From contig JAWZYU010000717.1 of the NCBI GenBank assembly GCA_038380435.1, positions 1 through 64,000 on the forward strand: 64,000 nucleotides of DNA, read 5' to 3'. The translations under genes were made by a program, and so were the position numbers. A model generated the notes under the pieces. That model did not search any database, was not told the DNA's origin, and saw only the letters and a program-made list of their open reading frames with translations. Below, one piece after another: positions 6,712 through 60,399 of this stretch; positions within the stretch are counted from its first letter, which is position 1; each line of letters begins with the position of its first letter. This stretch comes from Ryuthela nishihirai (Eukaryota > Arthropoda > Arachnida > Araneae > Heptathelidae).

Positions 6712-7102
6712 GAGGACGGGATGGCTTCGTTGGTAAGGCCTCAGGCTCGTAATCTGAAGTTCCCAGGTTCGAATCCCAGCTGGCTCAGCATTCAGATTTA
6801 TCTCCACAAAACTCTCTCTGCCCTGTCCACGGTCAGTAGGGGACACCAATGAGCTTGGAAAGGTCGCCGTTCGTCGGATGGGACGTTACGTGGTAGCTCT
6901 GTGTGTGGGAGTGCCATACCCTGTGCACGTTAAAGAACACGCTTCATAGCCTTGGGGGAAGTTATCATCTGTCTCCTAACAGCTACTCCAGTGGGTCCAC
7001 TCCCTCAACCTTCTCTGAGCCTTCGGGGTCCTTGTAACCCGGTCACTTAGCTCATTATGTGCAAAAAAAGTGCCACTCAGATGTAAAACAGCCCAACCCA
7101 CA
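6712..7102 (+). mobile_element. SINE, full length, diverged
   Basis: Head GAGGACGGGATGGCTTCG with altered A box, B box GGTTCGAATCC, tail AAACAGCCCAACCC. No clean target duplication. Confidence 0.92.
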
Positions 7103-7202
7103 ACAAGATTCTCTATCTATATATTGCATCTCCTGATATTCTGTTTACTGAACATTTCGTGTTCCATGTTTCACTGCTTTAGTGAAATTTAGAGTTAGTT
7201 TG

Positions 7203-10200
7203 TGTTGGATTGTTTTCTCTCTGAGCGGCACTCTTTCTCATACAATGGGCTAAATCGTCAGGCCACAAGGACCCCGAGGGCTCAGAGAAGGTAAGGAAAG
7301 TAATCCACTTTCAGGAGAAAGATGGTAGCCTCCTCTTAACAGCATCCAGTTCGTTTTAACGTGTACAGGTTATGGTTCTCCCACACATAGGGCGAAGGCT
7401 TTAAGTCCCATTCAAAGAACGGCGACCTTTCCAAACCCATCAGTGTCTCTTACTATCCGAAGTCAGGGAGTTTTTTTGCTTTAAGTCCCATTCAACGAAC
7501 AACGACCGTTCCAAATCCAACAGTGTCTCTTACTAACCGAGAGCAGGGAGTTTTGTAGTTTCAAGTCCCATTAAAAGAACTGCGACCTTTCCAACCCATC
7601 AGTGTCTCTTACTAACCGAGAGCAGGGCAGGGAGTTTTGTGGCTTTAAGTCCCATTCAACGAACTGCGACCTTTACAAACCCATCAGTGTCTCTTACTAA
7701 CGGAGAGCAGGGCAGGGAATTTTGTTGCTTTAAGTCCCATTCAACGATCTGTAACCTTTCCAAACCCATCAGTGTCTCTTACTAACCGATGGCAGGGCGG
7801 GGGAGTTTTGTGGCTTTAAGTCCCATTCAACGAACTGAGACCTTTCCAAACCCATCAGTGTCTCTTACTAACCGATGGCAGGGCAGGGGAGTTTTGTGGC
7901 TTTAAGTCCCATTCAATGAACTGCGACCTTTCCAAACCCATCAGTGTCTCTTACTAGCCAATGGCAGTGCAGGGAGTTTTGTGGCTTTAAGTCCTATTCA
8001 ACGAACTGCGACCTTTCCAAACCCATCAGTGTCTCTTACTAACCGATGGCAGGGCAGGGGAGTTTTGTGGTTTTAAGTCCCAGTCAACGAACTGCGACCT
8101 TTCCAAACACATCAGTGTCTCTTACTAACCGATGGCAGGGCAGGGGAGTTTTGTGGCTTTAAGTCCCATTCAACGAACTGCGACCTTTCCAAACCCATCA
8201 GTGTCTCTTACTAACCGATGGCAGGGCAGGGGAGTTTTGTGGCTTTAAGTCCCATTCAACGAACTGCGACCTTTCCAAACCCATCAGTGTCTCTTACTAA
8301 CCGATGGCAGGGCAGGGGAGTTTTGTGGCTTTAAGTCCCATTCAACGAACTGCGACCTTTCCAAACCCATCAGTGTCTCTTACTAACCGATGGCAGCACA
8401 GGGGAGTTTTGTGGCTTTAAGTCCCGTTCAACGAACTGCGACCTTTACAAACCCATCAGTGTCTCTTACTATCCGAAGTCAGGGAGTTTTGTGGCTTTAA
8501 GTCCCATTGAACGAACTGCGACCTTTCCAAACCCATCAGTGTCTCTTACTAACCAATGGCAGGGCAGGGGAGTTTTGTGGCTTTAAGTCCTATTCAACGA
8601 ACTGCGACCTTTCCAAACCCATCAGTGTCTCTTACTAACCGATGGCAGCACAGGGGAGTTTTGTGGCTTTAAGTCCCGTTCAACGAACTGCGACCTTTCC
8701 AAACCCGTCAGTATCTCTTACTATCCGAAGTCAGGGAGTTTTGTTGCTTTAAGTCCCATCCAACGAACAACGACCGTTCCAAATCCAACAGTGTCTCTTA
8801 TTAACCGAGAGCAGGGAGTTTTGTGGCTTCAAGTCCCATTAAAAGAACTGCGACCTTTCCAACCCATCAGTGTCTCTTACTAACCGAGAGCAGGGCAGGG
8901 GAGGTTTGTGGCTTTAAGTCCCATTCAATGAACTGCGACCTTTCCAAACCCATCAGTGTCTCTTACTAACCGATGGCAGGGCAGGGGAGTTTTGTGGCTT
9001 TAAGTCCCATTCAATGAACTGCGACCTTTCCAAACCCATCAGTGTCTCTTACTAGCCAATGGCAGTGCAGGGAGTTTTGTGGCTTTAAGTCCTATTCAAC
9101 GAACTGCGACCTTTCCAAACCCATCAGTGTCTCTTACTAACCGATGGCAGGGCGGGGGAGTTTTGTGGATTTAAATCCCATTCAACGAACTGCGACCTTT
9201 ACAAACCCATCAGTGTCTCTTACTAACGGAGAGCAGGGCAGGGAATTTTGTTGCTTTAAGTCCCATTCAACGATCTGTAACCTTTCCAAACCCATCAGTG
9301 TCTCTTACTAACCGATGGCAGGGCGGGGGAGTTTTGTGGCTTTAAGTCCCATTCAACGAACTGCGACCTTTCCAAACCCATTAGTGTCTCTTACTAACCG
9401 ATGGCAGGGCAGGGGAGTTTTGTGGCTTTAAGTCCCATTCAATGAACTGCGACCTTTCCAAACCCATCAGTGTCTCTTACTAGCCAATGGCAGTGCAGGG
9501 AGTTTTGTGGCTTTAAGTCCTATTCAACGAACTGCGACCTTTCCAAACCCATCAGTGTCTCTTACTAACCGATGGCAGGGCGGGGGAGTTTTGTTGCTTT
9601 AAGTCGCAGTCAACGAACTGCGACCTTTCCAAACACATCAGTGTCTCTTACTAACCGATGGCAGGGCAGGGGAGTTTTGTGGCTTTAAGTCCCATTCAAC
9701 GAACTGCGACCTTTCCAAACCCATCAGTGTCTCTTACTAACCGATGGCAGGGCAGGGGAGTTTTGTGGCTTTAAGTCCCATTCAACGAACTGCGACCTTT
9801 CCAAACCCATCAGTGTCTCTTACTAACCGATGGCAGGGCAGGGGAGTTTTGTGGCTTTAAGTCCCATTCAACGAACTGCGACCTTTCCAAACCCATCAGT
9901 GTCTCTTACTAACCGATGGCAGCACAGGGGAGTTTTGTGGCTTTAAGTCCCGTTCAACGAACTGCGACCTTTACAAACCCATCAGTGTCTCTTACTATCC
10001 GAAGTCAGGGAGTTTTGTGGCTTTAAGTCCCATTGAACGAACTGCGACCTTTCCAAACCCATCAGTGTCTCTTACTAACCAATGGCAGGGCAGGGGAGTT
10101 TTGTGGCTTTAAGTCCCATTCAACGAACTGCGACCTTTCCAAACCCATCAGTGTCTCTTACTAACCGATGGCAGCACAGGGGAGTTTTGTGGCTTTAAGT

Positions 10201-11290
10201 CCCGTTCAACGAACTGCGACCTTTCCAAACCCGTCAGTATCTCTTACTATCCGAAGTCAGGGAGTTTTGTTGCTTTAAGTCCCATCCAACGAACAACGAC
10301 CGTTCCAAATCCAACAGTGTCTCTTATTAACCGAGAGCAGGGAGTTTTGTGGCTTCAAGTCCCATTAAAAGAACTGCGACCTTTCCAACCCATCAGTGTC
10401 TCTTACTAACCGAGAGCAGGGCAGGGGAGTTTTGTCGCTTTAAGTCCCATTCAATGAACTGCGACCTTTCCAAACCCATCAGTGTCTCTTACTAACCGAT
10501 GGCAGGGCAGGGGAGTTTTGTGGCTTTAAGTCCCATTCAATGAACTGCGACCTTTCCAAACCCATCAGTGTCTCTTACTAGCCAATGGCAGTGCAGGGAG
10601 TTTTGTGGCTTTAAGTCCTATTCAACGAACTGCGACCTTTCCAAACCCATCAGTGTCTCTTACTAACCGATGGCAGGGCGGGGGAGTTTTGTGGATTTAA
10701 GTCCCATTCAACGAACTGAGACCTTTCCAAACCCATCAGTGTCTCTTACTAACCGATGGCAGGGCAGGGGAGTTTTGTGGCTTTAAGTCCCATTCAATGA
10801 ACTGCGACCTTTCCAAACCCATCAGTGTCTCTTACTAGCCAATGGCAGTGCAGGGAGTTTTGTAGCTTTAAGTCCTATTCAACGAACTGCGACCTTTCCA
10901 AACCCATCAGTGTCTCTTACTAACCGATGGCAGGGCAGGGGAGTTTTGTGGCTTTAAGTCGTAGTCAACAAACTGCGACCTTTCCAAACACATCAGTGTC
11001 TCTTACTAACCGATGGCAGGGCAGGGGAGTTTTGTGGCTTTAAGTCCCGTTCAACGAACTGCGACCTTTCCAAACCCATCAGTGTCTCTTACTAACCGAT
11101 GGCAGGGCAGGGGAGTTTTGTGGTTTTAAGTCCCAGTCAACGAACTGCGACCTTTCCAAACCCATCGGTGTCTCTTACTAACCGGGAGCAGAGCAGGGAG
11201 TTTTGTGGATATAAATCTCAACTCTGACCCAGTTGGGATTCGAACCTGGAAACTGCAGATTAAGAGTCAGTCGCACTACTAAGTAAGATC
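7203..11290 (-). mobile_element. SINE expanded by an internal satellite
   Basis: The outer parts of one diverged SINE: tail and 3' body at 7203-7396 (TGTTGGATTGTTTTCTCTC ... AGGGCGAAGG) and head at 11207-11290 (GGATATAAATCTCAACTCTG, GGGATTCGAACCTGG). The piece that should join them, about 85 bp of the body, is replaced by the 86-bp array below. Confidence 0.85.
7397..11206 (-). repeat. 86-bp satellite array derived from the SINE body
   Basis: About 45 head-to-tail units, consensus from GGCTTTAAGTCCCATTCAAC through CTTTCCAAACCCATCAGTGT to GGGCAGGGGAGTTTTGT. The unit aligns end to end with the SINE minus-strand segment GGCTTAACGTCCCATCCGAC ... CTTTCCAAGCCCATCGGTGT ... GGGCGGGGAATTTTGC. Shorter units lack part of the CAGGGCAGGG segment. 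Unit variants recur in a fixed order 1526 bp apart, i.e. a higher-order repeat of about 18 units. Confidence 0.95.
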
Positions 11291-11545
11291 CAAATACAGC
11301 GGACGACGTAGTTTGAGACGTCTTGCTCTGTTCAAGCAAATTAATCTTTAATACGAATTTCATTTGATGTCTGATAAAACATGTTGTTAAACTGAAATCG
11401 ATTTAAAATGTTCGTAATAATGAGAATCGTATTATCAAGGCTTTAGACCAGTTTATTAAACTTTTATTTTGTAAATTATCTTCAGATTAATTTCACTTTC
11501 GTTGTCAACTTTGGTTTTTGTTATTGTTATTAACTACTTCGGTCT
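11291..11545. other. unassigned AT-rich DNA
   Basis: No feature recognised. Confidence 0.4.
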
Positions 11546-12136: not shown

Positions 12137-12469
12137 GGGTTTGGTTGTTTTACCTCTGAGCGGCACTCTTTTGCACACCATGGGCTAAATGGCCAGGTCA
12201 CATGGACCCCAAAGGCTCAGAGAAGGTTGGGGGAGGGGACCCACTGGAACAGCTGTTGGGAGACAGATGGTAGCCTCCCGTCAAGGCCATCCAGCGTGTT
12301 CTTTAACGTGCACAGGGTATGGCTCTCCCGCACACGGGGCCACGGCTTAATGTCCCATCTGACGACGGCGGCCTTTCCAAGCCCATCGGTGTCCCCTACT
12401 GACCGTGGTCAGGGCGGGGAGTTATGCGGAGATAAATCTCAATGCTGACCCAGCTGGGACCCAGCTGGG
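12137..12469 (-). mobile_element. SINE, 5'-truncated at B box, bordering the LINE
   Basis: GGTTTGGTTGTTTTACC to CAGCTGGGACCCAGCTGGGA. The CCCAGCTGGGA segment is duplicated (slippage). It ends at the left target duplication of the LINE; the rest of the head is not found on the far side. Confidence 0.9.
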
Positions 12470-12726
12470 ACTTCATTGGTTTGGTTGTTTGGGTTTTAAT
12501 GGCGCATTAGCAACTAAGGCTATAATGCGCCATACGAATGTCCATAAGAAAAAAAAGATATAAATCGTGTAACTCTTAACAAAATTTTAAAAGAAACCAC
12601 AAACATATACTAAGAATGTAAAGCAATAAAAAGAAACATAATTGATAACAAGAAACAAATGTATAAATAAGTTATAAATATAAAGGTAACCCAGTTTAAG
12701 CGATCTGGGTTAAATATTGGAATAAA

Positions 12727-15700
12727 CTATATCCGAGTAAAATATCCTGTAAAAAGTAAAAATTCAAACACAGCGTTAAAACAATTTTGATCAGACAACG
12801 AATGTCCGAGAGTAAGGGGTTCGGACGGAAAATCGTGAAATTTAAAAAACAAACGCCGTTCCAAGTTAAAACATGGACATGAGATTAAAACGTGTTTGAT
12901 AGTTAAAATGGTGTCGCAAAACTCATACTTAGGTATGTCGTCCGCCCGTAGAAGAAACGAATGACCAAAGCAGAGCCGAGCAACTAAAACTTCCTCCTTG
13001 CGATTCCTGCAGTAACAAGACTGCCATGGCTTGATGATAGGTTTGATCTCAAAGAGATTGTTGGTAAGTTGTTCTGACCAAGATCTCTGCCACTGTGCCC
13101 GGAGCTCGGTGGTAAAACGCTGCCGGAAATCCAGATATGAAACCAGCAACGGAGAGTCGGACAGGGGCGTGGCTGACCTGGCAGCAGCATCTGCCAAATC
13201 ATTGCCCCTGATACCGACATGACCGGGCACCCAACGGAAGAGAACATTGGTTGAGGCTGCCAGACGATGTTGCTGCTGGCAGATCTTAGTAAGAACTGGG
13301 TGAGGCCGATGCCTCACTGAGATCAAAGCCTGTAGCAAGCTAAGCGAGTCGGTGTAAAGCACACACCGACGATGATGCGTAGTCGCCACTTGGTCCAAGG
13401 CGAGGCTGATAGCATGCAACTCTGCAGTGAAGATGGAACACTGCGGTGGGATCTGGTCTGCAATGATTACATCACAGCAGACCACGGCCGATACCACCGA
13501 TGTGCCGGACTTCTAGCCATCTGTAAAGACAGGCAAGAAGTCCGGGTGCTCAGCACAATGGCTGGCAAAGAGTTGCCGGTACACACAGTTGGGTGTAAAG
13601 GCCTTCCCCGTCCTGCACAGGGAAAAATCGCAGGAAGGGGAAACAACGAGCCAAGGTGGAAGTGGCTCAGCTGTCAACTGTGCGATGTTATCGAGACTGA
13701 TGTTAATGTCTCTGAGGTAGCCTCGGACACACAAACCAAAAGGACAAATGGCAGTCGGCCGATTTGTGTAAAGCATTTCCCACTTTTGACTGAAAACGCA
13801 GTCCCAAGTGGGATGGCCAGGCAGGGATCACAATTTAGCTGCGTATTGATTGTAGGGACAACTGCTGTCGGCAAAGAGATAATAAAGGTTCATTGGTCGC
13901 AACCTAAAGACTCCGGACCGGTGAGGTGCAGAAGGCTCCCGTGCAAACACGGAGGGCCTAATGATGGAGGGGGTCCAGCACCTTCACCACCGAATCCCGG
14001 GCGGAGTCGTACACCTGGGATCCGTAGTCCAGTTTCGATCAGACAAATTCACGGTAGAGGCGGAGCAATGAACATCGGTCTGCCCCCCAAGAAAGGGAGA
14101 AGAGGACCTTGATGATGTTCAATGCCCGCGTGCAATTGGACCTGAGATGGCGCATGTGTTGTAAAAAGGTCAATTTCCGATCGAATATGAGACAGAGAAA
14201 CTTGGTCTCCGCCACAACTGGAATGATGTTACCCCCGAGCCGAAGCTCAGGATCCAGATGAAGTTTACGCTTGTGGCAAAAGTGCACACAAAGCGGTCTT
14301 CTGTGGAGAGAACCGAAACCCATTTGTCGTCGCCCAAACCGAAAGATTGTTCAGGGCAATTTGCAGTTGTCTTTCAATGACCCTCATGCTGGACGAAGAG
14401 CAAAAGATGCTAAAGTCATCAACATAGAGGGCATTGCCTGCTGATGGAGGAAGTTGACTAGTAATAGAATTAATCTTGACAGCGAAAAGCGTAACACTCA
14501 GAATGCAGCCTTGTGGCACCCCTGTTCTTTAGGGTACTGCCGCGACAGTATGTTACCAACACGGACATGAAAAGAACGTGTTGATAAGAAGTTGGAGATG
14601 AAGATCGGCATGTGACCTCTCAAGCTGAAGCTGTGAAGGTCACGAAGAATGACGAATCTCCAAGCCGTGTCGTACGCTTTCACGATGTCGAAGAAAATTG
14701 ACACCAGGTGCTCTCTTCGTAAAAATGAATTTCTGATAGCCGATTCGAGGCGTATCAGATGGTCAAGAGTTGACCGTTGCCTGCGAAAGCCACACTGGGT
14801 GTTGGAAAGAAGGTTGTGGTGTTCTAAATACCAGATGAGTCTGGCATTTACCATTCTTTCCAACACCTTGCACACGCAGCTCGTCAACGCAATGGGACGA
14901 TAATTGGAAGGAATATTAGAATCCTTTCCTGGCTTTAGGAAGGCCAAGAAGATGGCCTCCCGCCAGGAGTTCGGAAACTGCTCCTCGAGAAAAATGCTAT
15001 TGAAAAGATGGAGCAGCCGATCCTTACTCGATGGTGAGAGATGTTGGAGCATGGCATAATGGACATTGTCTGGCCCTACAGCAGATGCACGGTAACTGTG
15101 CAGAGCAAGTCGAAGCTCTTCTACTGTGAATGGCCTGTTGTATGGCTCCAGGCCATTCGAATGGAAGGACAACGGAGAGCGTTCGGCCCTGCCCTTCTAA
15201 GCCAGAAACTCGGGGGAGTAAGAGTAAGATGAAGAGATGGAGGAGAATGACTCCCCCAGAGTATCAGCAATTGCTTTGGGATCAGCAATTGCCTGTCTAT
15301 TGTGCTCCAGGATCGATAACGAGTGGGACATGTAGTTCCCACCCATCTTCCTGAATTTATCCCACACGAACTTAGAAATGGTCTTGTTGGTAATAGAAGA
15401 CGTATATTTGATCCAAGATTCCTTCTGGCTCTGGCGCCGGATGAAACGAGCTTTCTCCCTGGCACGTTTGAACGTTTCAAGGTTGGGGGGTCGTCGGATA
15501 TCCCCGAAACCCCCCCCCCCAAGTCTAGTTCTGAGCCTTACGAGCTGCGGTGCAATCTGGATTCCACCACGGTTTCGGAAAGCGAGGAAACCGTGTCGAA
15601 GTTTGAGGAATTGTTGATGCAGCTGCATCTACGATACAGTCCGTTATCTCCGTCACTGCAACATTGATGGTCTCCTGGCTGACAGAGAGTGGTCATCGAG

Positions 15701-16431
15701 CTCAGAGAGCAGCTCGAAATCACCCCAGTCAGCCCGATCGAGCCTCCACAGTGAGACACGTGAAGGGCTACACGGCCCCCCACGGGAGATGGTGCACACC
15801 ACGGGGAGGTGATCACTTCCGTAAGGGTTGTCCTTGACCTCCCATGTAAAGAGTGGAAGGATCGAGGAGGAGCAGATGGTAAGGTCAATGGCAGTGAAAG
15901 TGCGGGTTGGGGAGTGAAAGTAAGTACTGACACCGGTGTTCAACAGGGAGAGAGAAGGATCCACGAGCCACTGCTCCAGGATCCCATCCTCCCGTTTGTG
16001 TCAGCACTGCCCCAAAGTGGACTGTGTCCGTTGAAGTCCCCCATTATGAGGAAGGGGGACGGCAGCTGCGAGACAACATCATCAAGGTCTTCCTGGAAGA
16101 CGATGCTCCCAGGTGGAAGATATACTGAACAGACAGTCAGTGAGAACCCCATGAATAAGCGGACGGCAACCGCCTCTAAGTTAGTGGTATGGGGTACGAC
16201 CTGGAATGGAGAATGGTTGCTCACGAGGATGACAACACCCCCGCGAGCTGGACCATCTCCATCCCAGTCCCAGCGAACTAGTAAGAAGTGCCAGATCATG
16301 GGATCTGTGACTGGCTGCAAGTATGTCTCCTGCAGGCACACATAAATGGGATGGTGTGCCTGAAGGAGGGCTTTGATGTCGTCAATATTCCTCTGGAATC
16401 CACGACAATTCCATTGTAGGAGTGTGGCCAT
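12727..16431 (-). pseudogene. LINE ORF2: endonuclease, reverse transcriptase, RNase H (broken)
   Basis: Starts MATLLQWNCRGFQ. The apurinic-like endonuclease (about residues 1-230) shows LQWNCRG, LQET (catalytic Glu), SVYLPPG, MGDFNGHSPLWG and YGSDHLPV (catalytic His). The reverse transcriptase has NYRPIALTS, CGFRRQRSTLDHL, FFDIVKAYDT (first Asp) and ALYVDDFSIF (YVDD). RNase H has FTDG, TAELHAI, LYTDS and GNDLADAAA. At least four frameshifts (near 15960, 15640, 15540 and 14510) break the frame, and a TAG stands directly after FTDG (near 13513). It would have cut target DNA and copied the LINE RNA in place. Confidence 0.9.
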
Positions 16432-16470
16432 CTTAGGACTTAGAAGAGTGGGCGGACGACGAATTCCTAT

Positions 16471-17710
16471 TCAACTTAACTGCCGCAGAGGACGGTTTAG
16501 TGAATAGGGGGCGGTCGGTATCCATGTCCTCGGAATTGTCCGAGGGGCATGGATTGGTGACCACTCTTTGTGGTGCAGTGATTTTCGTTTTTGGCCCCGG
16601 TGGGGGCCCCTTAGGTTTGGAAGATCTTGCTGTCTGAGGTGAGGAGGAGGCCTTCCGGTGGAGGTGGAAGGCTGAGTCGCAGGAATGGAAACAGGGGTTG
16701 ATGTCAAAGTCGACACCACCCTCGGTTTCGCCTGCGTGAGGAGGTACTTAGCTGCGGGCGAGAAAGACTCAGTTGGTGGTACACTGATGTCGGTCTGCAC
16801 CACCACCGAAGTAATTGGAATGATGGGCTTTCCAATGACTGCACTGGCATAGGAAACCTTGCCAGGTGGGGCGGGCGGTGTAGCAAGCTTTCTCGCCTCA
16901 GCATACGAGATGTTGTTCATGACTTTGAGGCGTTGTACCTCCTTTTCCTCTTTCCACTTCGGACAGTCGCGCAAGTACTCCGGATGATCGCCACTGCATT
17001 TCACACAGCATGCCTTTTCTGCTGCGCAGTCAGGATCAAGATGATCCTTACTGCCACAGCGAGCACAGGTGGGCTTGCCCCCAGCATGCTGTGCTGGCAT
17101 GCCCGTATATCTGACACTGAAAACAGCGCAGAGGGTTTGGTATATACGGCAGAACTTCACAATGCAAGTAACCTGCCTTGATGGAAGAAGGCAGGCACGA
17201 CGTATTAAATGTCACAATCAGTACCCAGGAGGGTACCAATTTCCCATCACGACGTGTCGAAACCCAGTGGACCGCTGTTACTCCTTGAGGTGTGAGCTCT
17301 GAGAGGATTTTCTGCTCAGTAACTTTGAGGAGGCCCCACTCAGTGATCACACCCCTAGAGAAATTCAGAGTTTTGTGGGGAGTGACTTCGACAGCCACCC
17401 CTCCAATTTCTCTGACTTTCAGGAGTAGTTCGGAGTGTTTCGAACAAGCAGTCTCAATCTGCAAGTCGCCAGATCGTAAGCGCTTGATGGATTTCGGCTC
17501 TCCTGCAAGACCTTTCAAACCTTTATTCACGAAAAATGGGGACATGTCCCCAAGTACCTGATCACCAGTGGAGTGGACGATCAGGAATCTCGGGAACGAA
17601 GGCACAGACACAGAAGACGACGGCAGAGATAACGGAGATGAAGAAGATGGGGGCTCATGTCGAGCCCTCTTGTTGGCACCGATCGCATTAATTTCGTCAT
17701 TCTCTTTCAT
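16471..17710 (-). pseudogene. LINE ORF1 (gag-like, three CCHC zinc knuckles), frameshifted
   Basis: RNA-binding ORF1 protein. Starts MKENDEINAIGANKRARHEP, then a serine-rich stretch, a PRFLIVHS...KRLRSGDLQIE region typical of Jockey gag proteins (about residues 40-130), and NPLRCFQCQIYGH. The knuckles read CFQCQIYGHASTAC, CARCGSKDHLDPDC and CVKCSGDHPEYLRDC. A frameshift near 17080, between knuckles 1 and 2, splits the ORF. A proline/serine/threonine-rich tail follows. ORF2 starts about 40 bases beyond its stop. Confidence 0.87.
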
Positions 17711-18405
17711 TTTTTATTTTGTGTGGTACAGTGCCCGCTGTCCTCACCCTCCACGGAACACAGCAAGGGGATGCCCAGTCGGGCGCCAGGGCTACGCAGG
17801 CACTATACCCACACAGACAGTGAGCCAAGCCCTCACAAATAAATAAAAGGAAAATAAAAAGAGAAATGTGCAAAACGAAATCATTTTACACAAAAGAAAC
17901 AAAGCGTAAAATAACAAAATTGTGAATGGCCAAACTGGCCTCACAAAGACATGATAACGACAAAAGGAAAATAATCTGTGAGGAAATTTGCAAACCTGTA
18001 CCCCGGACCGTGGGCAAGGTTACTCACCGCTCTGCACGGTTGACCCTAGCATGACCTGCCCACCAGCCGATTGCTCCTGGGAGGGGCCACCCCAGGAGCT
18101 CCCGTTTACCAGAAGCAGAAGCCAAATCAGTGTATAGCAGAGGCCCCGGAATCCGCTGCCCAGCCACGCGACAGACAGTGTCCCCAATGGCAAGGCGGCC
18201 AAAGGGGACCCCGCCAGTCATGAGCTGAGGAGAGAAGACGGGGACCCCCTAGCAACTACCAGGATCCTTCTTTCCCAGGACACGGGTCTCCGCGCATGGC
18301 AAACACACGGGCGAGCGTTTAGGACCCTGTGAAGGTAACCGACCCAGCGGAACCGTCACAGGGTGGTCCCCCTCACTGCGTATAGGCGCTCACACCGAGG
18401 GGGAC
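17711..18405 (-). promoter_or_regulatory. LINE 5' leader with structured 5' end
   Basis: 695 bp, much richer in GC than the surroundings. In LINE sense it begins exactly at the target duplication with GTCCCCCTC, which pairs with GAGGGGGAC (18366-18374); between them is a GCG/CGC mini-stem (18387-18389 with 18378-18380). Directly after comes a 9-bp hairpin ACCCTGTGA/TCACAGGGT (18324-18364). The internal promoter expected of Jockey-type LINEs should lie here. No tandem 5' repeats. Confidence 0.6.
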
Positions 18406-21657: not shown

Positions 21658-21856
21658 AGAGGGACATGACAGTCACGTGGACTCTCAAGGGCTCGAAGAA
21701 GGGGGGGAAGGGAACCCACTTATCAGCTGTGAGGAGAAAGATGGAAATCCTCCCATTAAGGCTTTCAGCATGTTTCTTTAACTTGCACAGCGTATGGCTC
21801 TCCTGACCATGGAGCCAGGGCTTAATGTACTCTCCGATGGATGGTGACCTTTCCAA
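21658..21856 (-). mobile_element. SINE 3' part that passes into the 32-bp array
   Basis: ACATGACAGTCACGTGGACTC to GATGGATGGTGACCTTTCC. The next SINE bases (AAGCCCATCGGTGTCC) are where the minisatellite begins; the head is absent. Confidence 0.85.
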
Positions 21857-22547
21857 GCCTATCCTTGTCCTATCATCCTCCCTATCAAGCCTGTCCTTGT
21901 CCTATCATCCTCCCTATCAAGCCTGTCCTTGTCCTATCATCCTCCCTATCAAGCCTGTCCTTGTCCTATCATCCTCCCTATCAATCCTGTCCTTGTACTA
22001 TCATCCTCCCTATTAAGCCTGTCCTTGTCCTATCATCCTCCCTATTAAGCCTGTCCTTGTCCTATCATCCTCCCTATCAATCCTGTCCTTGTCCTATCAT
22101 CCTCCCTATCAAGCCTGTCCTTGTCCTATCATCCTCCCTATCAAGCCTGTCCTATTCCTATCATCCTCCCTATCAAGCCTATCTTTGTCCTATCATCCTC
22201 CCTATCAAGCTGTCCTTGTCCTATCATCCTCCCTATCAATCCTGTCCTTGTCCTATCATCCTCCCTATCAAGCCTGTCCTTGTCCTATCATCCTCCCTAT
22301 CAAGCCTGTCCTTGTCCTATCATCCTCCCTATCAAGCCTGTCCTTGTCCTATCATCCTCCCTATCAATCCTGTCCTTGTCCTATCATCCTCCCTATCAAG
22401 CCTGTCCTATTCCTATCATCCTCCCTATCAAGCCTATCTTTGTCCTATCATCCTCCCTATCAAGCCTGTCCTTGTCCTATCATCCTCCCTGTCAAGCCTG
22501 TCCTTGTCCTATCATCCTCCCTATCAAGCCCGTCCTTGTCCTATCAT
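21855..22547 (+). repeat. 32-bp minisatellite seeded in a SINE
   Basis: About 21 units of AAGCCTGTCCTTGTCC + TATCATCCTCCCTATC, with a few one-base changes and one unit short by one base. The first unit (AAGCCTATCCTTGTCC) continues directly from the SINE body. Because 32 is not a multiple of three and the unit has no plus-strand stop, all three plus frames stay open, giving long repetitive ORFs that are not genes. Confidence 0.95.
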
Positions 22548-24857: not shown

Positions 24858-25548
24858 CGTATCAGAATGATATGACCACCAACCTAATAATGGGAATACC
24901 ACTCTTGGCCGGATGACAGCAGCGAGACGGCGTGGCATGGACGCAATAGGGCCCTGGAAGGTTGCCAGAGGCACATGTGCCCATTCGGACTCCAGCAGAG
25001 CACGGAGGTTCCATAGATGACGTGGTTGTGGGTCTGCACACCGAACTGTCGATCCAAATGGTCCCACAAGTGCTCTATGGGATTGAGGTCGGGCGATTTT
25101 GCCGGCCATGGGAGAACAGAAACATCACTGTAGTGTTCCTGGAACCAGTCATGCACCACCTTAACGACATGGCAGGGCGCATTGTCCTGTTGGTAGAAAC
25201 CATCACCACCAGGGTAAACGTCCAACATGAAGGGATGCATGTGGTTAGCGATGATAGATAGGTAGCCATTGGTGTTCAGGGACCCATCTAGTGATACCAG
25301 CGGTCCCAGGTCATGCCAGCGACAAGTCATCCCCCAGACATGCACACCGCCACCACCTGCCTGTACCTGACCGACAAGCATGTCTGGGTGTTGGTTCTTG
25401 TGTGTCTGACTCATATCTGCACCACCCGTCACTTCTGTGGAGTAGAAACCTCGATTCGTCGGAGAAGCAACCTTTTCCCACTCTTTCACTGTCCAATGAC
25501 GGTAGTCCTGTGCGAATAGCAGACGTCGTTGAGATGAGCCTTGGATAA
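24858..25548 (-). pseudogene. Tc1-like DD36E transposase, frameshifted and 5'-truncated
   Basis: Reading on the minus strand: HWTVKEWEKV, then (other frame) CFSDESRFLLHRSDG with the first catalytic Asp, then VQAGGGGVHVWGM, DGFYQQDNAPCH (second Asp) and WPAKSPDLNPIEHLWD (Glu). There are 36 residues between Asp and Glu. A second frameshift near 25035 moves the C-terminus (NLRALLESEWAHVP) to another frame. The N-terminal HTH is lost where a SINE stands at 25553. Belongs to the DD36E (Incomer-like) group, as does the fragment at 4353. Confidence 0.85.
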
Positions 25549-25552
25549 CATA

Positions 25553-25938
25553 GGGGCGGGGGTGGCTCAGTCGGTAGCGCGCCAGACTCGTAATCTGTAG
25601 TTCCCAGGTTCGAGTCCCAGCTGGGTCAGTGTTGAGATTTATTTCCGCAAAAATTCCCCGCCCTGCCCACGGTCAGTAGGGGACACCGATGGGCTTGGAA
25701 AGGCCGTCGTCCGTCGGATGGGACGTTAAGCCGTGGCCCCGTGTGCGGGAGAGCCATAACCTGTGCACGTTAAAGAACACGCTGGATGGCCTTGACAGGA
25801 GGCTACCATCTGTCTCCCAACAGCTGTTCCAGTGGGTCCCCTCCCCCAACCTTCTCTGAGCCTTCGGGGTCCATGTGACCTGGCCATTTAGCCCATGGTG
25901 TGCAAAAAAGTGCCGCTCAGAGGTAAAACAACCCAACC
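25553..25938 (+). mobile_element. SINE, full length, near consensus
   Basis: GGGGCGGGGGTGGCTCAGTCGG to AACAACCCAACC with perfect A and B boxes. It borders the truncated transposase; no clear target duplication, so it may mark a deletion. Confidence 0.95.
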
Positions 25939-27303: not shown

Positions 27304-27862
27304 GGGGCGGGGGTGGCTCAGTCGGAAGCGCGCCAGGCTCGTAATCTGTAGTTCCCAGGTTCGAGTCCCAGCTGGGTCAGCGTTGAGATTTATCTCCGCA
27401 AAATTCCCCGCCCTGCCCACGGTCAGTAGGGGACACCGATGGGCTTGGAAAGGCCGCCGTCCGTCGGATGGGACGTTAAGCCGTGGCTCCGTGTGCGGGA
27501 GAGCCATACCCTGTGAACGTTAAAGAACACGCTGGATGGCCTTGACAAGAGGCTACCATCTGTCTCCCAACAGCTGTTCCAGTGGGTCCCCTCCCCCAAC
27601 CTTCTCTGAGCCTTCGGGGTCCATGTGACCTGGCCATTTAGCCCATGGTGTGCAAAAAAGTGCCGCTCAGAGGTAAAACAACCCAACGTTAAAGAACACG
27701 CTGGATGGCCTTGACGGGAGGCTACCATCTGTCTCCCAACAGCTGCTCCAGTGGGTCCCCTCCCCCAACCTTCTCTGAGCCTTCGGGGTCCATGTGACCT
27801 GGCCATTTAGCCCATGGTGTGCAAAAAAGTGCCGCTCAGAGGTAAAACAACAACAACAACAA
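27304..27862 (+). mobile_element. SINE with a duplicated 3' module
   Basis: One full SINE (27304-27686) followed directly by a second copy of its last ~165 bp (27687-27862) joined at CCCAACGTTAAAGAACACGC, tail CAACAACAACAACAA. A single 12-bp target duplication GCTTTGATTTAG (27292-27303, 27863-27874) encloses both, so they were inserted as one transcript. The target is an older SINE-like tail (27863-27921). Confidence 0.94.
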
Positions 27863-32728: not shown

Positions 32729-33261
32729 ATAAACAATAGTTTGAATAGTAATACAGCTTGCAAGAAAAACGTGATAAATTGCTTTGATGAAAAGAATTCA
32801 TGACCAACAACAGCTGATGATTTTTTTTTTGGCTAGTCATTGCCATTTGTTATTCGAATAATGTTTTAAATAATTTTCAGCTTAAAAAATTTATCTTTTT
32901 GACGTCAAAATTTTTCAATATTTCTATTGTTCAAGCTTATTAAAATAGGTGTTGACTATAAGCAGTTAGTAAGACTAAATTATAAGGCGTTGAGAGTGAC
33001 TGACAAAACGACGTTAAAAAATGAATCCCAATGGAAATTCATGCTAACCAATTTATTATAGTGTGCCTTCGTAGGTAAGGACTTTGAGATTTGAAACTGC
33101 GACTTAGTAAAATGTAAACGAACGGTAGTTATGAAAACAATGGTGAGGTGGCGTGTATTTTATTTGTAAAAAATGGTGAATTTAAAAATCTGTGTTTTAG
33201 AGAAAAGCTATGCAAGATATTAAACCTTATTAACATGTACTAATACACTAAATAACTGAAA
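32729..33261. other. unassigned AT-rich DNA
   Basis: Nothing recognised before the 28-bp array. Confidence 0.4.
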
Positions 33262-34312
33262 GACAGACTAATGCAACAACCAATCGACAGCCAAAATTAT
33301 AAAACAACCAACCCACAGACAGACTAATACACCGTCCAACCGACAGACAGACCAATACACCATCCAACCGACAGACAGAATAATACACCACCCAACCGAC
33401 AGACAGACTATTACACTATCCAACCGACAGACAGACTAATACACCATCCAACCGACAGACAGACTAATACACCATCCAACCGACAGACAGACTAATACAC
33501 CATCCAACCGACAGACAGACTAATACACCATCCAACCGACAGACAGACTAATACACCATCCAACCGACAGACAGACTAATACACCATCCAACCGACAGAC
33601 AGACTAATACACCATCCAACCGACAGACAGACTAATACACCATCCAACCGACAGACAGACTAATACACCATCCAACCGACAGACAGACTAATACAATATC
33701 CAACCGACAGACAGAATAATACACCATCCAACCGACAGACAGACTAATACACCATCCAACCGACAGACAGACTAATACACCATCCAACCGACAGACAGAC
33801 TAATACACCATCCAACCGACAGACAGACTAATACACCATCCAACCGACAGACAGACTAATACACCATCCAACCGACAGACAGATTAATACACCATCCAAC
33901 CGACAGACAGACTAATACACCATCCAACCGACATACAGACTAATACACCATGCAACCGACAGACAGACTAATACACCATCCAACCGACAGAGACTAATAC
34001 ACCATCCAACCGACATACAGACTAATACACCATCCAACCGACAGACAGACTAATACACCATCCAACCGACAGACAGACTAATATACCATCCAACCGACAG
34101 ACAGACTAATACACCATCCAACCGACAGACAGACTAATACACCATCCAACCGACAGACAGACTAATACACCATCCAACCGACATACAGACTAATACACCA
34201 TCCAACCGACAGACAGACTAATACACCATCCAACCGACATACAGACTAATACACCATCCAACCGACAGACAGACTAATACACCATCCAACCGACAGAGAG
34301 ACTGCCCTGATC
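33262..34312 (+). repeat. 28-bp minisatellite
   Basis: About 37 units of CCGACAGACAGACTAATACACCATCCAA, very uniform in the middle, with rare variants (CATACAGAC, a 4-bp deletion near 33990, AATATCC). The inner GACAGACAGAC is itself a 4-bp repeat. Older, looser units at the left edge. Confidence 0.97.
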
Positions 34313-34837
34313 AACAGAATGAACAAGAGTCGGTCAACTGAGAATTGTGAGACATTCTCTCTCGCTAGCTGATTGGTTTGTCACTCTGTTGGCCAATCTG
34401 TCACACAGTCTGTTTTTCAGTAATAAAGTATCACAGAAAGGTTTCCTATAGACAAGAAAATTGCTGAAAAAACATTGTTTAGCTGATGGTGAAGTGGTTA
34501 TCATAGCCAGCATGTTTCTACGTGACGTGGGCTCGTATCATACTCAGGGCAAAACCAAATTTTTTTTTCAGCTAATTATTCAAACGGTCAGGTTTTTTCC
34601 TCTCGAATGGTCTGTCAGATAGTTTGTCTCAGTCAGCTGACTGGTCTGTCACATCGTTCGTTTCAGCCATATTTCAATTTGTTTCTGTCTGATTGTTTGT
34701 TGACAGATGATTTGTCAATCAGTCTGTTGACTGGACATTTTTGGTCTTCCTGTTGACTGGAATTTTGTCTTCCGGTAGGTTGTATTTTTAGTCTAAATAT
34801 TATATTTTTAATATTTATATTATATTTATCACCTAGA
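34313..34837. other. unassigned; contains a possible tRNA-like segment
   Basis: 34485-34550 reads TGGTGAAGTGGTTATCATAG (A-box-like), then ~35 bp later GGGCTCGTATCATACTC (weak B box), then CAAAACC and a T run. It may be a decayed tRNA or the head of another SINE. Several GTCTGTC motifs echo the array on the opposite strand. Confidence 0.35.
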
Positions 34838-37186
34838 ATCGTAATAAATTTATGCGACCCTCTAGAAATATAATAAATTTATGCGACCCTCTAAAAATGT
34901 AATAAATTTATGCGACCCCTAGAATTGTATCAAATTTATGCGACTCCCTAGAACTGTAATAAATTTATACGAAACCTATAATTGTAATAAATTTTTGCAG
35001 CCCCCTATAATGGTAATAAATTTATGCGATCCTGTAAAACTGCAATAAATTTATGCGACCACTTACAATTGTAAAAATTTATGCGACCACTAAAATTGTA
35101 ATAAATTTATTCCACCCCTCTACAATTGTAATAAATTTCCCATTAGAATTCCAATAAATTTTTGCGATCCCTAGAACTCTAATTAATTTATTCAATCCCC
35201 TAGAATTAAAATAAATTTATACGATCCCCCAGAATTATAATAAACTTATGCGACCCCCTAGAACTGTAACAAAACCATGCGATATCCTAGAATTTTAAGA
35301 AATTTTTGCGATCCCCTACGATTGTAATAAATCTTTACGATCCCTATCATCGTAATAAATTTATTCAACCCCCTAGAAATGTAAGAAATTTATAAATTTA
35401 TGCGACCCACTGGGACTGTAATCAATTTAAGCTATCCCATAGAATTCTGATAAATTTATGAGATCACCTAGAATTGTAATAAATTATGCGACCCCCTTGG
35501 ATTTTTATTAATTATGCAATCCCCTGTAATTTTAATAAATTTATACGACCCCTTAGAATTGTAATAACTTTGTGCCATCCCCCTAGAATTGTAAAAAATT
35601 TATGCGACTTCCTACAATTGTAATAATTTATGCGACCCCTAAAATTATGATAAATTTATGCAATACAGGGGATCGCATAAATACGATACACCCTATATAT
35701 ATAAATAGGATACACTCTATATATATTGTAATAAATTTATGCGACCCCTAAAATTTTAATAAATCTCTCCTTAGAATTCCGTAAATTTAATTAATTTATT
35801 CAACCCCCTAGAATTAAAATAAATTTATACGATACCCCAAAATTATATTAAACTTATGCGACCCCCTAGAATTGTAACAAATCCATGTGACAGCCTAGAA
35901 TTGTAATAAAGAACCAGACCAGTCAGCTGACTGAGACAAACGATTTGATAGACCAATCATAAATTAATAAAACTCCTAGATGTCGCATAAATGTTTTACA
36001 ATTTCTAGAATATTTATTAATTTATGCGATCACCTGTCATCGCAAATGAAATCCTAGGATACACATGTAACCCTAGGATATTTATTAATTTATGCGGTCC
36101 TCTGGAATTCTAATAAATTATTTGTTCCCTTAGAATTATAATAAATTTATGCGACCCCCTATCATCGTAATAAATTTATTCAATCTCTTAGAAATGTAAC
36201 CAATTTTTAGAAATGTAACTAATTATTTAGTAACCAAGGGATCGCATAAATTAATAAAAATCCGCCTAGGATTTTTATTAATTTATGCGATCCCTTGGAA
36301 TTGCAATAAATTTATGCGACCCTCTTGAATTGTAATGCGACCACATAGAATTGTAATAAATTTATCCTACCCCGAGGATTTTTATTCATTTGTGCAATCC
36401 TCTGGAACTGTAATAATAAAAAACTTTATACGACCCCTTTGAATAATAATTAATTTATGCGACCCCTTATCATCGTAATAAATTTATTCAATCCCCTAGA
36501 TATGTAACAAATTTATGCAACACACTAGATTTGTAATAAATTTATGCGACCTCTAAGATTTTTGTTAATAAATACGATCCCCTGTAATTATAATAAATTT
36601 ATACGACCCCTAATTGTAATAAATTTATGCGACCCTCTAGAATAATAAATAATTTATGCGACCCCCTATCATCGTAATAAATTTATTCAATCCCCTAAAT
36701 ATGTAACAAACTTATGCGACAATCTAGAACTGTAATAATTTCATGGGACCCCTAGATTTTTTATTTATGCTTCCCCTGGAATTGTAATAAAATTTTACGA
36801 CCCCCCCAGAATTGTAATAAATTAATGCGACTCTCTGGAATTATAACTCATTTATGCGACACCCTATCATCGTAATAAATTTATCCAACCCCCTAGAAAT
36901 GTAACAAATTTATGCGATCCCTAGAATTGTAATAAATGTATGCAACCGCTTTGAATTGATGCGACCCCCAGAATTGTAATAAATTTATGCGACCCCTTAG
37001 AAATGTAATAAATTGAGCGAAAGCCTGGAATTGTAAAAAAATTAAGTGTCTCCTTAGAAATGTAATAAATTTATGCTACCCCATAAATTGTAATAAATTC
37101 CTGCGACACCTAGATTTGTAATAAATTCATGCGACCCCCTAGAAATATAATAATTTTATGCGACTCCCTATAATTGTAATAAATAT
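34838..37186 (+). repeat. degenerate ~29-bp tandem array
   Basis: About 80 strongly diverged units of TAGAATTGTAATAAATTTATGCGACCCCC; unit length varies between about 26 and 31. Some units are inverted (GGGGATCGCATAAAT near 35668 and 36238). Old compared with the neighbouring 28-bp array. A non-array piece at 35917-35965 is an inverted match to 34605-34650. Confidence 0.9.
36234..36298. repeat. perfect 30-bp inverted repeat in the array
   Basis: Arm 36234-36263 starts CCAAGGGATCGCATAAATTA; arm 36269-36298 is its exact reverse complement; spacer GCCTA. Could form a cruciform. Confidence 0.92.
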
Positions 37187-42089: not shown

Positions 42090-42663
42090 GGTGGAATGTG
42101 TAAAAATAAATAAATACCCCCTGAAGCAGATGCTTGCGATAGAGGTCTGACAGTTTATATACCATAGTAGAAGGTCTGAGAGGATGGCAGGACCTTAGCA
42201 GAAAAACGACACATCAATGCCTTACCCGGAGCTCGAACCCAGGTCCCTTAGATCAGTAGCCAAGCGCGCTAACCACTCGGCCATGGGACGGGGCTCGAAC
42301 CCAGGTCCCTTGGATCAGTAGCCAAGAGCGCTAACCACTCGGCCATGAGACGGGGCTCGAACCCAGGTCCCTTAGATCAGTAGCCAAGCGCGCTAACCAC
42401 TCGGCCATGGGACGGGGCCCGAACCCAGGTCCATTAGATCAGTAGCCAAGCGCGCTAACCACTCGGCCGTGGGACGGGGCTCGAACCCAGGTCCCTTGGA
42501 TCAGTAGCCAAGAGCGCTAACCACTCGGCCATGGGACGGGGCTCGAACCCAGGTCCCTTAGTTCAGTAGCCAAGCGCGCTAACCACTCGGCCATGGGACG
42601 GGGCTCGAACCCAGGTCCCTTAGACCAGTAGCCAAGCGCGCTAACCACTCGGCCATGGGACGG
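42090..42663 (-). mobile_element. second SINE-like family with a multiplied tRNA-like head
   Basis: On the minus strand: seven tandem tRNA-like heads (see next entry), then a ~130-bp body (CGGGTAAGGCATTGATGTGTC, TGCTAAGGTCCTGCCATCC) ending GGGGTATTTATTTATTTTTA. Unrelated to the main SINE in body and tail. Confidence 0.75.
42231..42663 (-). repeat. seven tandem tRNA-like units, 62-bp period
   Basis: Each unit on the minus strand has an A-box match TGGCCGAGTGGTTAGCGCG and a B-box match GGGTTCGAGCC, with loop CTACTGA between. Successive units overlap so that GTCCCATGG is both the 3' end of one head and the 5' end of the next. Copies differ by only one to three bases. Ser/Leu-type tRNA origin suggested by the A box; not a functional tRNA (no variable arm, no full acceptor pairing). 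Confidence 0.88.
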
Positions 42664-43618: not shown

Positions 43619-44169
43619 CGTTGGGTTGTTTTACCTCTGAGCGGCACTATTTTTGCACACCATGGGCTAAATGGCCAGGTCACATGGACCCCGAAGTCTC
43701 AGAGAAGGTTGGGGGAGTGGACCCACTGGAACAGCTGTTGGGAGACAGATGGTAGCCTCCCATCAAGGCCATCCAGCGTGTTCTTTAACGTTGGGTTGTT
43801 TTACCTCTGAGCGGCACTTTTGTGCACACCATGGGCTAAATGGCCAGGTCACATGGACCCCGAAAGCTCAGAGAAGGTTGGGGGAGGGGACCCACTGGAA
43901 CAGCTGTTGGGAGAGATGGTAGCCTCCCATCAAGGCCATCCAGCGTGTTCTTTAACGTGCACAGTGTATGGCTCTCCCGCACACGGACCACAGCTTAACG
44001 TCCCCTTCGATGGACGACGGCCTTTTCAAGCCCATCGGTGTTCCCTGCTGACCGTGGGCAGCGCAGGGAATTTTGTGGAGATAAATCTCAATGCTGACCC
44101 AGCTGGGACTCGAACCGGGGAACTGCAGATTACGAGCCTGGCGCGCTACCGACTGAGCCACCCCCGCCC
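43619..44169 (-). mobile_element. SINE with a duplicated 3' module
   Basis: Extra 3' unit (43619-43791) joined at TTCTTTAACGTTGGGTTG to a full SINE (43792-44169). Target duplication CCACTGGATCTTG (43606-43618) / CCACTGGGTCCTG (44170-44182), two mismatches. Second instance of the junction seen at 27.7 and 57.9 kb. Confidence 0.92.
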
Positions 44170-44182
44170 CCACTGGGTCCTG

Positions 44183-45034: not shown

Positions 45035-45424
45035 TTGGTTGGTTGGTTGTTTTACCTCTGAGCGGCACTTTTTTGCACACCATGGGCTAAATGGCCAGGT
45101 CACATGGACCCCGAAGGCTCAGAGAAGGTTGCGGGAGGGGACCCACTGGAATAGCTGTTGGGAGACAGATGGTAGCCTCCCGTCAAGGCCATCCAGAGTG
45201 TTCTTTAACGTGCACAGGGTATGGCTCTCTTGCACAAGGGACCACGGCTTAACGTCCCATCCGACGGACGGCTGCCTTTCCAAGCCCATCGGTGTCCCCT
45301 ACTGACCGTGGGCAGGGCGGGGAATTTTGCGGAGATAAATCTCAAAGCTGACCCAGCTGGGACTCGAACCCGGGAACTACAGATTACGAGCCTGGCGCGC
45401 TACCGACTGAGCCACCCCCGCCCC
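45035..45424 (-). mobile_element. SINE, full length
   Basis: 11-bp perfect target duplication CTCTTAGTAAG (45024-45034, 45425-45435). Confidence 0.96.
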
Positions 45425-53688: not shown

Positions 53689-54380
53689 ACTCTCTGATCT
53701 AGATCAATAATTCTCTGATCGAAACAATAATACTCTGATCTAGATCAATAATTCTCTAATCAAGATCAATGATTATCTGATATAGATCAATGATTATCTG
53801 ATCTAGAACAATGATTCTCTGATCTACAACAATAATTCTCTGATCTAGATCAAAAATTCTCTGGTCTAGAACAATAATTCTCTGATCTAGAAAAATAATT
53901 CTCTGATCTAGAACGATGATTCCCTGTTCTAGAAAAATAATTCTCTGATCTAGAACAATAATTCTCTGATCTAGAACGATGATTCTCTGATCCAAAACAA
54001 TAATTCCTTGATCTAGAACAATAATTCACTGATCTAGAACAAATTCTCTGATCTAGAACAATTATTCTCTGATCTAGATCAATAATTCTCTGATCTAGAT
54101 CAATAATACTCTGATCAAGATCAATGATTATCTGATCTAGATCAATGATTATCTGATCTAAAACAATGATTCTCTGATCTAGAATAATGATTCTCTGATC
54201 TAGAACAATGATTCTCTGATCTAGAATAATGATTCTCTGATCTAGAACAATGATTCTCTGATCCAGAACAATAATTCTCTGATCCAGAATAATAATTCTC
54301 TATCTAGAACAATAATTCTCTGATCTAGAGCAATGATTCTCTGATCTAGATCAATAATTCTCTGATCTAGAACAATAATT
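53686..54380 (+). repeat. 21-bp minisatellite
   Basis: About 33 units of TTCTCTGATCTAGAACAATAA with substitutions (GATCAATAA, GAACGATGA). 21 bp is seven codons, so one minus-strand frame is a repeated DQRIIVL heptad; this is a by-product, not a gene. It starts inside the MITE's GATCAG and ends at a hAT-like end (TTTTCAAACTTTTTATGCTC, 54379-54398). Confidence 0.96.
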
Positions 54381-57525: not shown

Positions 57526-57744
57526 GAACCACCACAACGGAGCTTCCCTGAACTTTTGCAAAATTTCACACCATGGTTTTAAATATATATTTAAATAATT
57601 TCATGCATATTAAATTACATAAATATATATTTTAATATTCTTATTATTATTCTATTAAATTTCGTATTTATTATTCTTCTCTCCTACAAATAAGCAGGTG
57701 CTTTGCGGGTCAATTTTTTAAACTTTTGTATAACTAACATGATG

Positions 57745-58695
57745 GGTTGGGTTGTTTTACCTCTGAGCGGCACTTTTTTTGCACACAATGGGCTAAATAG
57801 CCAGACCACACGGACCCCGAAGGCTCAGAGAAGGTTGGGGGAGGGACCCACTGGAACAGCTGTTGGGAGACAGATGGTAGCCTCTCGTCAAGGCCATCCA
57901 GCGTGTTCTTTAACGTTGGGTTGTTTTACCTCTGAGCGGCACTTTTTTGCACACCATGGGCTAAATGGCCAGGTCACATGGACCCCGAAGGCTCAGAGAA
58001 GGTTGGGGGAGGGGACCCACTGGAACAGCTGTTGGGAGACAGATGGTAGCCTCCCGTCAAGGCCATCCAGCGTGTTCTTTAACGTTGGGTTGTTTTACCT
58101 CTGAGCGGCACTTTTTTGCACACAATGGGCTAAATGGCCAGGTCACATGGACCCCAAAGGCTCAGAGAAAGTTGGAGGAGGGGACTCACTGGAACAGCTG
58201 TTGGGAGACAGTGGTAGCCTCCCGTCAAGGCCATCCAGCGTGTTCTTTAACGTGCACAGGATATGGCTCTCCCGCACAAGGGGCCACAGCTTAACGTCCC
58301 ATCCGACGGACAGCGGCCTTTTTAAATACATCAGTGTCCCCTACTGACCATGGGCAGGGTATTGATGTCGGGGACGTGGGGGACATGGGAATCGTAGGTG
58401 AGGAATACGAGGTTCATGGATATTGCGGTCGGGGACACAGAAGGATTGGTATGACAAGTGGCAGACGTTGAGGATATGGTGTTGGAAGAGGGTTGGGTTG
58501 TTTTACCTCTGAGCGGCACTTTTTTTGCACACCATGGACTAAATGGCCAGGTCACATGGACCCCGAAGGCTCAGAGAAGGTTGGGGGATGGGACCCACTG
58601 GAACAGCTGTTGGGAGACAGATGGTAGCCTTCCGTCAAGGCCATCCAGCGTGTTCTTTAACGTGCACAGGGTATGTCTCTCCCGCACACGGGGCC
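57745..58695 (-). mobile_element. composite SINE multimer with captured DNA
   Basis: One perfect 13-bp target duplication AACTAACATGATG (57732-57744, 58696-58708) encloses: two extra 3' modules (57745-57915 and 57916-58084, joined at TTTAACGTTGGGTTG), a SINE lacking its head (58085-58359), 131 bp of non-SINE DNA (58360-58490; GATGTCGGGGACGTGGGGGA...) and a 5'-truncated SINE (58491-58695). The whole was therefore reverse-transcribed as one RNA. Confidence 0.88.
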
Positions 58696-59173: not shown

Positions 59174-60399
59174 AAGTGGTTCTCAACCTTTTATGCTTCA
59201 CGTACCCCCTGGAACTGTGTATGTAACTGGCGTACCCCTTGTATAGATAGATACAACTATAGTTATAGTATAACAATGGGAATAAAATAAGACATATATA
59301 TCAGTGGTTCTCAAACTTTTATGCTTCACGTACCCCCTGGAAATGTGTATGTAACTGGCGTACCCCTCGTATAGATAGATAAAACTATAGTTATGGTATA
59401 ACAATGGGAATAAAATAAAACATATATATCAGTGGTTCTCAAACTTTTATGCTTCACGTACCCCCTGGAAATGTGTATGTAACTGGCGTACCCCCTTGTA
59501 TAGATAGATAAAACTATAGTTATAGATAACAATGGGAATAAAATAAAACATATATATATCAGTGGTTCTCAAACTTTTATGCTTCACGTACCCCCTGGAA
59601 ATGTGTATGTAACTGGCGTACCCCTTGTATAGATAGATAAAACTATAGTTATGGTATAACAATGGGAATAAAATAAGACATATATATCAGTGGTTCTCAA
59701 CCTTTTATGCTTCACGTACCCCCTGGAAATGTGTATGTAACTGGCGTACCCCTTGTATAGACAGATAAAACTATAGTTTTGGTATAACAATGGGAATAAA
59801 ATAAGACATATATATCAGTGGTTCTCAAACTTTTATGCTTCACGTACCCCCTGGAAATGTGTATGTAACTGGCGTACCCCTTGTATAGATAGATAAAACT
59901 ATAGTTATGGTATAACAATGGGAATAAAATAAGACATATATATCAGTGGTTCTCAAACTTTTATGCTTCACGTACCCCCTGGAAATGTGTATGTAACTGG
60001 CGTACCCCTTGTATAGATAGATAAAACTATAGTTTTGGTATAACAGTGGGAATAAAATAAGACATATATATCAGTGGTTCTCAAACTTTTATGCTTCACG
60101 TACCCCCTGGAAATGTGTATGTAACTGGCGTACCCCTTGTATAGATAGATAAAACTATAGTTATGGTATAACAATGGGAATAAAATAAGACATATATATC
60201 AGTGGTTCTCAAACTTTTATGCTTCACGTACCCCCTGGAAATGTGTATGTAACTGGCGTACCCCTTGTATAGACAGATAAAACTATAGTTAGAGTATAAC
60301 AATGGTTATTTTTACTTTGTTACTAGATCTAACGACTTTTGAGCTCTCACGGCGTACCCAAAAAAATCTTTACCGCGTACCCCACGTTGAGAACCCCTA
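59174..60399 (+). mobile_element. hAT-type MITE with nine tandem left ends
   Basis: Left end AAGTGGTTCTCAACC at 59174, right end GTTGAGAACCCCTA at 60399, 8-bp duplication ATCTACAG (59166-59173) / ATCTGCAG (60400-60407). Eight ~128-bp units (59174-60199), each a left end CAGTGGTTCTCAAAC plus ~100 bp ending GGGAATAAAATAAGACATAT, precede a ninth left end that continues into the normal right half (TTACTTTGTTACTAGATCTA ...). Confidence 0.93.

Follow-up and report, generated by a model that had tools for sequence, protein, structure and literature searches.

A 45-unit tandem array that very probably arose in place within one old SINE copy of the spider Ryuthela nishihirai

We asked how a tandem array came to stand in the middle of a SINE. 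The DNA analyzed here is a stretch of 64 kb (the window), which is part of an 82-kb contig, and a sequence-only reading of it had described about 45 units of 86 bp at 7203..11290, taken to be a SINE body turned into a satellite. TRF reported this stretch as one array at 7397-11208 (minus strand; period 86, 45.0 copies, score 6126). Splitting of the array in the orientation of the SINE likewise yielded 45 monomers, and the coordinates given earlier were correct to within a few bases. The array spans 3.8 kb, and its monomers are 80-86 bp long: 26 have 86 bp, 10 have 85 bp, one has 84 bp and eight have 80 bp. There are 29 distinct monomers among the 45, and pairwise identity averages 92.1%. Tandem arrays in general are numerous in the window.

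The SINE is a tRNA-derived element of about 387 bp. BLASTN revealed dozens of copies and fragments of this one family in the window, and 24 of the copies were combined into a consensus, which was trimmed to 387 bp; a full-length neighboring copy (6718..7097, plus strand) served as the first query. The element has the features expected of a tRNA-derived SINE, i.e., a tRNA-like head, dispersed copies and, at 27304, an exact 12-bp target-site duplication recognized by eye. ARAGORN read the head of the neighboring copy (6714-6787) as tRNA-Thr(CGT), and another copy matched the Rfam tRNA family at 45356-45415, exactly at the gathering score (29 bits). The genome that was searched comprises 3.11 Gb in 1680 contigs. 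In a 200-kb sample of it, made up of 20 preset 10-kb stretches with one each on contigs C1 to C20, the SINE covered 14.4% of the sequence; 44 of the 114 matches were near full length, and mean identity was 93%. On contig C272, SINE matches at 681, 14866 and 29051 were spaced exactly 14,185 bp apart, which suggests a long tandem unit containing the SINE.

The array unit derives from the body of this element. It aligned with positions 94-180 of the consensus of the 24 window copies at 80.7% identity over 88 bases (E 1.1e-19). The sequence-only reading was right that the unit corresponds to a segment of the SINE body; its wording that the two align "base for base" was too strong, as the array consensus has 80% identity to the SINE segment and exceeds it by one base. 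When the neighboring SINE copy was used as the BLASTN query, nearly every unit of the array was matched on the minus strand, mostly by query positions 104-184, and the matches crossed both array edges: at the left edge they passed into SINE tail (7201-7468), and at the right edge into SINE head (11130-11266). The tail occupies 7204..7396 (minus strand, BLASTN) and corresponds to consensus positions of about 181-385 with 80.3% identity (155 of 193 aligned bases). The tRNA-derived head lies at 11209 to about 11290 (minus strand) and corresponds to consensus 1-97 with 79.1% identity (72 of 91). With both flanks being minus-strand SINE, the array stands where its segment belongs in one element, tail left and head right, as had been proposed. 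Head, tail and array consensus show 79%, 80% and 80% identity to the SINE consensus, respectively. That is, the three parts are equally diverged, by about 20%, and therefore most likely belong to one old SINE copy. Comparison of the outer flanks gave a weak candidate target-site duplication of 7 bp, TAGTTTG, at 7196..7202 on the left and about 11309-11315 on the right; it carries little weight because 66 of 2000 random pairs did equally well.

The breakpoints can be read on both the consensus and the seed copy. In the SINE consensus, the unit is preceded by ATCTCCG and its end reads TTAAGCCG, which places CCG at both breakpoints. In the seed copy, the head flank (...TATCC) meets ACAAAA and the last monomer (...AAAGCC) meets TTCGCC, with CC still in common. 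The CCG at both places is consistent with a duplication that may have arisen by slippage or by short-homology joining; homology of 2-3 bp is weak evidence alone and could be due to chance.

The array differs from the SINE consensus by 17 substitutions, 11 of which are present in all 45 monomers, indicating that these 11 either predate the amplification or were homogenized. For two of the 17 substitutions, a single outermost monomer still has the SINE base: the first monomer (head edge) in one case and the last (tail edge) in the other. We take this edge retention only as a hint, because interior monomers carry the SINE base at four of the sites and because the edge monomers overall are not closer to the SINE: they match it at 66 of 85 (78%) and 61 of 81 (75%) aligned bases, compared with 80% for the array consensus. 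Monomers 7-18 recur as 25-36 with three differences in total, and monomers 20-24 recur as 38-42 with five. Along the diagonal at a lag of 18 monomers, an ungapped alignment placed the two copies of an 18-monomer block at 7630-9243 and 9156-10769 (span 7630..10769, minus strand), 1526 bp apart and 98.9% identical over 1614 bp. Thus, growth included at least one later duplication in a large step.

We then consider where else the unit occurs. The genome search for the 86-bp unit passes over very common words, and 40 of 1899 candidates were scored; therefore, absence of the unit elsewhere is to be read as holding for these candidates and not as exhaustive. The scoring gave 84 matches, 45 inside the array and 39 outside; all matches of at least 90% identity lay within the array, and those outside reached 83-87%. 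All of the first five outside matches that were fetched lie in ordinary SINE copies without an array, four of them near full length and one extending over consensus 2-303. A satellite flanked by something other than SINE and closer to the unit than the SINE is, which would speak against this origin, did not appear among the scored matches: none outside the array exceeded 87%, and the five fetched are SINEs. We also searched for the junction between adjacent units with a pattern that allowed either SINE or array letters. Of 38 exact matches, the array accounted for 30, and the other eight were spread over as many other contigs; all eight were single, and no exact junction stood in tandem outside the array. 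With up to one mismatch, 307 matches were obtained (269 beyond the exact ones) compared with 81 for the reversed control, the places listed being the first 100 with the exact matches leading.

On these data, we consider it highly probable that the array was born in place from one old SINE copy, by duplication of a segment of about 85 bp and growth to 45 units. The SINE insertion would be ancient, its sequence having since diverged by about 20%. A body segment (consensus 96-180, about 85 bp) would have been duplicated head to tail within the copy, joining places that share CCG, and unequal exchange or replication slippage may then have extended the array; at least one of the steps added many monomers together (the 18-monomer block of 1.5 kb). 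The order of these events and the mechanism are inferred, and no function is suggested for the array.

The array might instead have arisen elsewhere from another SINE copy and moved in by recombination or by reintegration of circular DNA. Homologous landing sites are common, given the share of the sample that is SINE, but no donor array was present among the scored unit matches or the exact junction matches, and array and flanks are equally distant from the SINE consensus; we leave a slim chance for such a transfer. An artefact of assembly, affecting the whole array or its copy number, is very improbable. The contig is short (82 kb) and arrays are difficult to assemble; however, the 29 distinct monomers stand in one order, and the two sides of the array carry SINE head and tail together with other sequence. 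Insertion of SINE fragments one after another at the same spot can be practically dismissed, although the window and the sample do contain several spots where SINE pieces adjoin: independent insertions are not expected to give 45 units with identical boundaries and 11 common substitutions away from the SINE, and the common junction speaks strongly against them. Birth in place from the enclosing SINE copy is thus the reading that we adopt, and the flanks and equal divergence bear out the seeding part of the sequence-only reading. The word "satellite" did not hold. A classical satellite forms long arrays in heterochromatin at many loci, whereas this one is 3.8 kb long and was found at one locus among the scored and exact junction matches, its exact junction being in tandem nowhere else; the array is an embryonic satellite at most.

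The same reading had reasoned that a dispersed SINE could start satellites at many loci. We found no enrichment of SINEs as seeds. In the window, a SINE lay 10 bp outside one edge or both for 5 of the 15 arrays compared with 4.3 expected under random placement (P 0.44); in the sample of 20 x 10 kb, this held for 5 of 30 compared with 6.1 expected (P 0.78). SINEs as privileged seeds of arrays are therefore unsupported at this sample of 15 + 30 arrays. An array at 21854-22547 (32 bp x 21.7) begins inside a truncated SINE (21672-21870); it was rejected as a second case in place because BLAST did not match its unit to the SINE and because its right side lacks a SINE. At L045:5947-6364, a 28-bp x 15 array has a SINE at its right edge and, by eye, SINE-like sequence on its left, and at L037:9471-9517, a 12-bp x 4 array splits a SINE at consensus 218/219, beside the start of the 169-bp tail unit described below. 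Both lie in or against a SINE, but their units were not traced to SINE sequence, and we do not count them as SINE-derived arrays.

The idea of many loci fared better with another part of this element. In the window, three SINEs carry tandem copies of the final 169 bp (consensus 217-385) with an identical junction. The copy at 27304..27851 (plus strand) has this tail duplicated between exact 12-bp target-site duplications (GCTTTGATTTAG, by eye), the copy at 43620..44170 (minus strand) has the same duplication with a near-match target-site duplication (GACCCAGTG / GATCCAGTG, by eye), and a head-truncated copy at 57744..58359 (minus strand; TRF, BLASTN) has three tandem tails with the common junction. 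A further multi-tail copy with this junction was seen at L037:4484-5037. By eye, target-site duplications were recognized beyond the outermost tail in three of these four copies (exact 12 bp at 27304, 9 bp at L037:4484, and one mismatch in 9 at 43620), and none was established for the copy at 57744. These duplications, as judged by eye, suggest that the copies were inserted as two-tail units.

Genome-wide, the 33-letter junction of the 169-bp tail was present 36,888 times as an exact match and its reversed control 0 times; the corresponding 33-letter stretch of the ordinary SINE occurred 179,985 times. Allowing up to two mismatches, the ratio of ordinary to junction stretches was 59 to 1 in the 200-kb sample and 30 to 4 in the window, i.e., the distribution is uneven. 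The first 100 junctions listed, all on C1 within its first 69.1 Mb, fall into 64 runs, 22 of which have at least two junctions in 169-bp register; the run rule permits gaps, and the longest implied runs are uncertain. At L056 (C1:67565750-67568450), a partial SINE is followed by eight further tails, and the parent and all eight tails have GGGTCTCCTCC in place of the consensus GGGTCCCCTCC. Unless it marks a subfamily, this common variant suggests that the tails multiplied in place. An exact 190-letter stretch containing two junctions occurred 499 times (control 0). Ten of the 100 two-junction places listed lie in C8:53574573-53581353, with every spacing a multiple of 169. A 601-bp piece from the middle of this region is an uninterrupted 169-bp array, and in the piece from its high end the tails pass into SINE body that is 100% identical to the consensus; if the array is continuous between the two pieces read, this implies that a single SINE adjoins about 42 tandem tails (C8:53574573-53581900). 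Tail copy number with one fixed junction therefore ranges from two to about 42, the largest being implied by register.

We give even chances to the possibility that members of this SINE family, as they spread, bring preformed satellite seeds with them: a subfamily already carrying the 169 bp twice would be inserted, and its tail would then expand on site, reaching tens of copies at many loci and making a multi-locus satellite. Retroposition of the two-tail form would carry ready-made duplications to new places, where unequal exchange could extend them. The fixed junction itself may have arisen during reverse transcription, with synthesis leaving a tail fragment and resuming at the 3' end of a different template; for the first junction, such template jumping and a duplication in a single source copy both fit. 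In the open-licence literature, we found no title or abstract opening on this SINE or on 169-bp SINE-tail arrays.

Other elements were noted in the window. Seven tandem 62-bp units at 42227-42663 resemble a tRNA head with both Pol III boxes and match the SINE head weakly (E 0.002); they are perhaps another SINE family. At 12727-17713 (minus strand) lies a LINE in pieces, with Pfam matches to endonuclease, reverse transcriptase and RNase H and, by eye, a zinc-knuckle-like motif. Its 3' end near 12475-12500 resembles the CAACCCAAC end of the SINE and abuts a head-truncated SINE (12137-12475); a partner LINE or a template-switch chimera is possible. A transposase remnant at 24884-25672 has a DDE_3 match and is perhaps of the Tc1/mariner kind. 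Other large arrays were found at 33239-34303 (28 bp), 34832-37184 (29/58), 49341-52142 (35), 53691-54380 (21) and 59175-60305 (128); by BLAST, none of these five has a significant match to the SINE or a flanking SINE.

Tandem repeats made from SINEs are known. In squamates, SINE-derived satellites (sSats) mostly have one longer terminal unit that reaches the SINE end, and a minor form has both ends (PMC10702118). The 86-bp array is similar in that a portion of a SINE is repeated in tandem and the SINE continues beyond it, here into head and tail at the two array ends, as in the minor variant with both termini; more homogeneous long loci and monomer variants alternating within loci are further likenesses (PMC10702118). 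The sSats differ in coming from the Squam1-3 SINE families, and snake sSat3 has up to thousands of loci (PMC10702118). The major sSat forms have the same variant at many loci, whereas the exact 86-bp junction is in tandem at one locus here; the separate 169-bp tail unit does recur at many. The sSats also tend to lie in subtelomeric regions (PMC10702118). That source calls the restriction of sSats to squamates uncertain.

Human tandem repeats derived from transposable elements include an AluJo array of 17 units of 52 bp, for which in situ duplication is the explanation given (PMC3389668; Jurka and Gentles 2006 is cited there). As in our locus, a segment internal to a SINE was duplicated in situ; in addition, the units of five long human arrays are closest to each other and not to other regions, and older Alus have more units (PMC3389668). 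The Alu-derived arrays average 2.3-2.4 units, compared with 45 here (PMC3389668). Further SINE-derived tandem repeats are described from mouse B1, salamander and Xenopus (PMC9659126). In the limpet Patella caerulea, the satellite PcH-sat is linked to Nin-SINE, and its 179-bp unit includes 118 bp of SINE (PMC11121367). PcH-sat is large, mainly pericentromeric and about 10% of the limpet genome, and, unlike for the 86-bp array, the relevant portion of PMC11121367 describes no flanking seed SINE.

With squamate, human, limpet and other cases published, the kind of event is known, and the 86-bp array adds to it a new case that can be read unusually well. Satellite births are usually inferred once their origin has been erased, whereas this locus still shows the seed, the breakpoints, a growth step and the ancestral flanks. 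The SINE that generates arrays is abundant in its genome, and the 86-bp and 169-bp arrays come from different segments of it. The 169-bp tail arrays provide many loci at differing stages of growth, at which the passage from a duplication to a satellite could be tested.
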